Source: Phycisphaerae bacterium
GTDB lineage: Bacteria; Planctomycetota; Phycisphaerae; UBA1845; Fen-1342
NCBI GenBank assembly: GCA_028279405.1
Contig: JANQNU010000007.1
Span: 62,001-126,000 of the forward strand
Length of the DNA stretch: 64,000 bases
Reading direction: 5' to 3'
How positions within the stretch are numbered: the stretch's first letter is position 1; every line of letters starts with the position of its first letter. This document shows positions 60,285 through 64,000 of the stretch, piece after piece. The notes beneath the pieces are model-generated. The model worked only from the letters and a program-made list of their open reading frames with translations, did not search any database and was not told where the DNA came from. The translations under genes were made by a program, and so were the position numbers.

Positions 60285-63025
<2,741 letters not shown>

Positions 63026-63029
<4 letters not shown>

Positions 63030-64000
63030 GTTTGCGACGAGGTCATCCTGCGGCACTGCTCGCGGCGCAACTGCTCGCGATCAGCGCAGTGGTGGCGCTG
63101 GCGCTGGTTCTGCTTCCCTCGGTTCGGCTCAGCGATCGTGACGCCGAGTACTTCTGGGCACGGCATTGGTGGCAGTCGGCATTCGACGCGCTCAGTGTGA
63201 CCACCGGCGTCGGGATGGTGACACGCTCGTTTGCGGAGGACTATACGCAAGTTGGTGTCTGGGTCCTGGCCGTCGGCGGCGTGCTTGGTGCGATCTGCTA
63301 TCTTCGGCAGCTGGCGCGCGCGCTAGAATCGGTGTTTCACGTGAAACACGTTTGGCGGGCCATCGGGCTGACGACCGTTGTCGGATGTGCATGCGGCTTG
63401 TGGCTGGGGGTGCGGAGTGTGTCGGCGGCGAACGGCGTAGCGCAGGGATTAGCGGCGGCGTTCGGTGTCGGGCTCTCGATACCCGAGGTCGTTCGTTCGG
63501 CGCCGGCGTTCGGACCGCTCGTCGTCATCGGGGCGGTTGCGGCGGTCGGTGGGCTCGCGCTGCCTCTCATCCGGCAATTCTTGCGCGTGCGGGATGTGCG
63601 GCGCACGATTTGCGCGGCGCTCGTTTGCTGGCTCGTGAGTATGATTGCGACCGCAGCGATGGTTGCGTATTTCGAGCGCCCGTCCGTGGCCCCGGGCAGT
63701 GCGGCACGGTCGAGCGACGTTGATCGGGCGTTCTCCCGGACGCTTGGCGGCACGTTTGCGGTCGGCACGGCTGGCGTCGATCTGCTCGCGATCGATCGTG
63801 ATTCAGCGGAGGGTGTCAAACTCGCTCTCGGCGCCGTCGTGCTGGTTGGAGGCATTGGTGGCAGTGCGGTTGGGGGCGTCGGTGGTGTGTGGCTGCTGCT
63901 CGCGATCGGCTCGCTGGTTCTCCGGTCGTCGAATGCGACGGGCCCGGGTAGTGCGGGGCGTGGAAAAACCGATACGGAACGTGGACAGAGTCTGCTTCAG
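63026..64000 (+). CDS. TrkH-like potassium-transport membrane protein, truncated by window edge
   Basis: The frame starts with GTG at 63026, overlapping the mutS stop, and stays open for 325 codons to the right edge. Several hydrophobic segments are present. DALSVTTGVGMVTRSFAEDY followed by TQVGVWVLAVGGVLGA resembles the pore-loop plus helix of TrkH/KtrB subunits, and FAVGTAGVDLLAID may be the next pore region. It is divergent from true TrkH (shorter spacers), so the identification is tentative. The gene contains a perfect parS site at 63333-63348, read as VFHVKH. Translational coupling to mutS suggests an operon. Confidence 0.55.
63333..63348. promoter_or_regulatory. parS: parS chromosome-segregation site (ParB binding site)
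   Basis: TGTTTCACGTGAAACA is identical at all 16 positions to the consensus parS site bound by ParB in most bacteria. The palindrome extends by one base on each side (63332-63349). It lies within a coding sequence, as many chromosomal parS sites do. Confidence 0.9.

Follow-up and report, generated by a model that had tools for sequence, protein, structure and literature searches.

Does a perfect copy of the ParB-binding site parS, lying inside a protein-coding gene, tell us where a bacterial chromosome begins to replicate? The question is raised by a single site in a 64-kb stretch of Phycisphaerae DNA (the window), which comprises positions 62001-126000 of contig C92 in a 5.63-Mb draft genome, here called G000, of 92 contigs and 95.5% completeness. 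A standing question is why these sites are clustered around the origin and what role distant ones play (PMC7333895). We argue here, with a probability of about 0.58, that the site in the window is a genuine ParB loading site and one member of a dispersed set, whose sites have multiplied, spread over the chromosome and been kept by selection.

The site and its host gene

A check of the sequence finds TGTTTCACGTGAAACA, a perfect 16-bp parS, within the 18-bp palindrome GTGTTTCACGTGAAACAC (63332-63349), exactly as the initial annotation had reported. It is the single perfect copy in a scan of the 64 kb, where the next best match has 3 mismatches and 0.15 matches with three or fewer mismatches would be expected. 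A right outer arm can be recognized beside the core, while the left arm does not fit the motif described below.

The site lies in an open reading frame beside mutS, again as first described, and is directly downstream of the mutS ORF. This host ORF starts at 63026, or at 63089 according to the gene caller, and reads through parS in the frame GTG TTT CAC GTG AAA CAC (V-F-H-V-K-H), at about codon 82 counting from the 63089 start. The TrkH-like identity originally proposed for its product finds no support: no Pfam family was matched beyond chance even at an E value of 10, and neither an NCBIfam family nor a relative in the PDB was found. The structure prediction for the protein reached a pLDDT of 43, too low for its fold to bear on the TrkH identity.

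Table 1. Coordinates of the parS site, its neighbours and related features elsewhere in G000 (numbers without a prefix are window positions)
Feature	Position	Strand	Remarks
parS 16-mer	63333..63348	.	palindromic; 14-bp core GTTTCACGTGAAAC at 63334-63347
Right outer arm ACGTTTGGCG	63348..63357	+	fits the arm motif common to many G000 copies
Host ORF	63026..64000, runs past the window to C92:126351	+	product hydrophobic, with multiple helices
mutS ORF	60285..63029	+	named from sequence; 4-base overlap with host ORF
Sialic-acid-type sugar cluster	L165:11405-14246		just past the window's right end, adjoining the host gene; cytidylyltransferase, NeuB, UDP-GlcNAc 2-epimerase
dnaA and dnaN	C92:25327-26592 (L006)		coordinates are those of dnaA, which is over the TIGR00362 cut-off and is followed by dnaN
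Second DnaA-family gene	C28:16769-18046 (L007)		over TIGR00362 cut-off
parB	C52:2943-3863	-	two parS beside it, one inside
polA	L134:5881-8742	-	a perfect parS and another with a single mismatch, located in the linker that joins the 5'-3' and 3'-5' exonuclease domains or close to it
Fatty-acid/polyketide synthase-like gene	L164:4009-11160		codes for ketoacyl synthase and FabA-like domains in about 2384 codons; carries two perfect parS, separated by 312 bp

Copy number in the genome and the class

Further copies, a search for which had been proposed along with the initial description, are numerous. In the genome as a whole, the full 16-mer occurs 8 times and the 14-bp core 27 times, against a mononucleotide expectation of 0.007 for the core and no copy at all of a reversed-pattern control. 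Chance is thereby ruled out as the origin of the copies, in agreement with the earlier judgement that a chance match was very unlikely. Just three cores with one mismatch accompany the 27 perfect ones, and these numbers, together with the empty control, indicate that the core is kept perfect rather than decaying.

How general is this abundance? In a survey of 296 genomes of the class, the majority have 0-3 perfect parS sites and, among the matches listed, the sites of low-copy members mostly adjoin parB. Large expansions, with 27, 34, 51 and 61 copies, occur in scattered lineages. Expansion among the 81 nearest genomes is seen in G000 itself (27), G164 (34), G133 (51) and G304 (61, in 4.2 Mb), of which G304 belongs to the same family as G000 and the other two to other families of the order; intermediate counts are found in G087 (9), G303 (9), G299 (7) and G096 (6). 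The expanded genomes fall at scattered positions in the ParB tree and so give no support to a single ancestral expansion, although most forks of the tree are weak.

The surroundings of the sites in two of these relatives have a character of their own. The 51 sites of G133 (L166-L194) mostly form pairs with starts 31-32 bp apart, about three helical turns, and have further intergenic repeats around them, for example CGCAGATTTGCGCAGATT. In G304 (L203-L222), many sites have TTTGCGTCGCGCAA on one of their two sides, which makes the repeated unit there longer, at about 50 bp.

Outer arms, repeats and sites inside genes

An unlikely reading, and the main rival to selection of individual loading sites, is that the copies belong to a small dispersed palindromic repeat, like REP elements or the Rickettsia palindromic element, in which the parS word is central or has been captured. 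Such a repeat would spread by copying, and ParB binding would be either incidental or what keeps the repeat harmless. Many of the copies do share more than the core, namely an arm motif, TT(G/T)G(C/G), that begins 4-6 bases outside it and is fitted by 23 of 54 arms in G000 and 34 of 42 in G304, compared to a background of 2%. The arm consensus is CGTTGC in G000, AGNNTTGCGC in G304 and ANNNTTTSGC in G133. Some of the sites inside G000 genes have both arms and lie in linkers, where they give rise to a recurrent NDVSRETAL-like peptide. In the relatives, the likeness between copies extends past 10 bases into the flanks (569 of 5151 pairs in G133, 30 of 861 in G304), longer repeats surround parS clearly in G133 and to some extent in G304 and G164, and the G164 copies are often at contig ends. 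Together with the paired spacing in G133, these features count in favour of a repeat.

The copies in G000 argue otherwise. Beyond about 10 bases their flanks are unrelated, with only 1 of 1431 pairs alike, and the likeness from copy to copy outside the core is confined to arms of about 8 bases. Left and right arms show no covariation, each fitting the consensus independently, so that protein half-sites suit the arms better than a hairpin does. The parS sites beside parB carry arms in G000, G096 and G304, and in low-copy members of the family such arms are nearly absent. As for phages as a vehicle of the armed sites, only three contigs of a whole viral collection (L326, L327 and L328) match the two armed parS patterns, and these could be planctomycete DNA or phage-plasmids.

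The sites inside genes bear on how the copies arose. Gene calls from a simple caller based on codons place 14 of the G000 sites inside genes and the remaining 13 outside, the latter being over-represented in a genome that is 87% coding (13/27 vs 13% non-coding, P = 1.4e-5). The 14 are always read in one or other of the two stop-free frames, ten as VSRET and four as FHVK. Wherever VSRET occurs in the called genes of G000, ten times in all, the parS codons specify it (joint chance 4e-4). These codons are uncommon in G000, where other VSRE peptides are written with other codons. Housekeeping genes are among the carriers, including polA, hscB and the gene for DAHP synthase. At three conserved-domain sites the encoded peptide aligns without gaps to solved homologues: PYKLVSRET of DAHP synthase with PYKLVSREF of the Thermotoga enzyme, LRVSRET-HPD of HscB with solved HscB proteins, and GVSRET of a formate-dehydrogenase-like protein with GIDQET. 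The gapless alignments imply that parS arose here by substitution and not by insertion; the inserted unit that a repeat would bring was not seen at any of the three.

Like REP and similar palindromic repeats, then, the parS copies are dispersed palindromes, often intergenic and in G133 paired; unlike REP elements, those of G000 include few decayed copies, show no arm covariation and were written into genes by substitution. The situation differs in the other expanded genomes, where the copies are mostly intergenic (51 of 51 in G133, 34 of 34 in G164 and 17 of 21 sampled in G304) and partly within longer repeats, which looks more like repeat spread than site-by-site selection and counts against the preferred reading. 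In G133, G164 and G304, some of the copies may be best explained by a palindromic repeat.

Dispersal and the replication origin

A second alternative is that G000 has an ordinary origin-proximal parS cluster that simply contains more copies, as in Streptomyces. Published maxima do reach 20-24 sites, near oriC (PMC7333895, PMC12207404), and several G000 sites lie where this explanation would have them: the window copy is 98.7 kb from a dnaA gene followed by dnaN (at C92:25327), three more belong to the parB locus, and another lies close to a second dnaA gene. However, G000 has its 27 sites in 23 clusters, distributed over 21 contigs that total 2.27 Mb, and even the tightest contig arrangement gives a span of 1.89 Mb, or 34% of the genome. 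Contigs of 269, 215, 151, 126, 123, 112 and 104 kb are among those that carry a single cluster. In G133, with its 4.6 Mb, the sites listed span no less than 2.15 Mb.

In a draft of 92 contigs, distances from oriC can be given only in statistical terms. A simulation of the dispersal placed 23 clusters at random in a zone centred on the origin and asked how often at least 21 contigs are hit. With the lengths of 51 contigs simulated, and on the assumption of one replicon and a correct assembly, the probability rises with the size of the zone, from 0.0005 (2 Mb) through 0.006 (3 Mb) and 0.02 (4 Mb) to 0.10 (whole genome). A zero-truncated Poisson estimate, under the same two assumptions, gives a lower bound of 4.6 Mb for the occupied zone. 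A plain origin cluster is thus ruled out by the contig spread, zones of 2 Mb or less being rejected, and we give little credence to the enlarged Streptomyces-like version. The G000 sites are probably spread over much or all of the chromosome, and the whole chromosome fits the simulation.

The complete genome of a relative, G173, provides a partial map. Its dnaN and parB genes are about 3 kb apart at 0.13 Mb, close to where the cumulative GC skew runs low, and genes linked to G000 sites lie in many parts of it, for example at 0.79, 0.98, 1.64 and 3.13 Mb; gene order is too scrambled for an ordering of the G000 contigs on this map to be decisive. Within G000, the two DnaA proteins share only 35% identity. 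The second gene (on C28) is preceded, at a distance of 277 bp, by a perfect DnaA box, and 5.6 kb separate it from the parS in hscB.

What does this mean for the window? The initial annotation placed it, on the strength of its parS copy, in the origin-proximal part of the chromosome or of a secondary replicon. The location is probably right, because dnaA and dnaN are on the same contig, and this holds independently of parS. The reasoning fails, since perfect sites on 21 contigs over at least 1.89 Mb mean that a copy does not locate oriC in G000. A secondary replicon is not needed, and no evidence for one was found. What would have counted against the initial reading, a lack of clustering among the other parS sites, is seen in part, the three sites at parB forming the sole tight cluster.

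ParB, ParA and SMC

Perhaps the parS word is used by some other DNA-binding protein, which owns most of the copies: a regulator, or a counterpart of Noc, the ParB paralogue with many dispersed sites. The excess of copies outside genes would suit such a protein, and ParB in most relatives manages with 0-3 sites. Nevertheless, a single ParB_N protein was found in G000, of the chromosomal type, and three parS sites lie beside or within its gene; this and the exact 16-bp word bear out the original description of the site as canonical parS. Several copies lie 19-35 bp after stop codons, and no positional link of the G000 sites to promoters was seen. Noc prefers a different site, the NBS, and the preference of ParB-family proteins for parS or NBS is switched by identified residues (PMC7383237). 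G000 ParB has the parS-type R and G at the positions equivalent to R173 and G201 (Caulobacter numbering), as judged by eye from the segments GESRASISN and MGQAR, and scores 216 bits against the Noc profile, below the cut-off of 315; neither the residues typical of Noc (Q, K/K, R) nor an NBS is found in a system whose site word is parS. Ownership by another protein is hardly probable on these grounds. Going by the parS-type R and G, each perfect core should be bound by ParB.

G000 ParB is about 50-55% identical to the ParBs of its family, among which that of G305 is identical to the protein of 'Phycisphaerae bacterium DeMMO2_9', which places G000 in this class of planctomycetes. At the position of K171 it has E, as do most members of the family, and a specificity change from GKSR to GESR was rejected as the cause of the expansion, GESR being common also in low-copy relatives. 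No parA was found among the genes adjoining parB in G000. Each of the 28 genomes tested has a match to SMC, which exceeds the cut-off in all but one of them; loss of SMC cannot explain tolerance of extra sites, as the protein is present in expanded and unexpanded genomes alike.

An assembly or contamination artefact, for which the fragmentation of the draft into 92 contigs could be cited, is very improbable given a contamination estimate of 0.94%, copies in housekeeping genes and the same pattern in independent genomes.

A probable dispersed set of ParB loading sites

We return to the preferred explanation, a selected and dispersed set of loading sites. In this model, each of the approximately 27 sites, including the three beside or in parB, would be a loading point for clamps of ParB dimers with CTP. 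The clamps would slide a short way, such that many small partition islands take the place of a single origin-proximal centromere. The islands could bridge one another and load SMC at many places, and the dispersed ParB and SMC would then organize the whole nucleoid while the origin is also moved. Sites inside G000 genes would have arisen in place by base substitution, with selection holding their cores perfect and adding an outer arm where the protein allows it. We infer ParB binding and selection for a chromosome-organizing role, with SMC loading at each site. The system is a variant of ParABS rather than a new one: its site and its ParB are standard, and it is called a variant because the usual clustering around oriC was tested and not found.

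A broader and more tentative proposal is that several Phycisphaerae lineages have independently converted an origin-bound centromere into a chromosome-wide one, with tens of perfect parS sites, arms read by a domain or partner of ParB, and ParB and SMC organizing the whole nucleoid. Work in model species speaks against a dispersed set of loading sites. Extra parS sites outside the origin region are harmful in Caulobacter, Pseudomonas and Bacillus (PMC5815017, PMC7333895, PMC8357415), additional sites being tolerated up to about 500-600 kb from the native cluster in the species tested (PMC5815017, PMC7333895).

Comparison with known systems and implications

The closest parallels are the ParB-parS systems of Streptomyces coelicolor and Listeria innocua, which resemble G000 in a 14-16 bp site, one chromosomal ParB and many copies (20-24). 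Their copies are near oriC, whereas those of G000 span at least 1.89 Mb and relatives have up to 51 and 61. Bacillus subtilis, with 8 parS sites over about 0.75 Mb (PMC8357415), shares with G000 the wide spacing of canonical sites, but its spread is less than half of the smallest span possible in G000, and even that has been deemed unusual and, for SMC collisions, counterproductive (PMC8357415). Archaeal SegB sites are scattered across the Sulfolobales chromosome, mostly in genes (PMC12284271). SegAB is thus a functional analogue, a segregation protein with many chromosome-wide sites as in G000; SegB, however, is unrelated to ParB and has a different motif, while the G000 sites are canonical parS. 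The Noc/NBS system differs in its site word and from the parS-type R and G of G000 ParB. A limited literature search found no published planctomycete case of ParB with dispersed parS sites, and to our knowledge none has been described.

A practical consequence is that parS is unusable for placing oriC in genomes expanded in this way. If ParB binds the armed sites, then there is a recognition element beyond the known 16 bp. In the model species examined, parS engineered into distant positions does harm and can bring SMC complexes into collision (PMC5815017, PMC8357415). Here the experiment has been provided by nature, some genomes having 27-61 perfect sites spread over megabases and their relatives one or two; the contrast could inform how ParB and SMC cope and how centromeres multiply.
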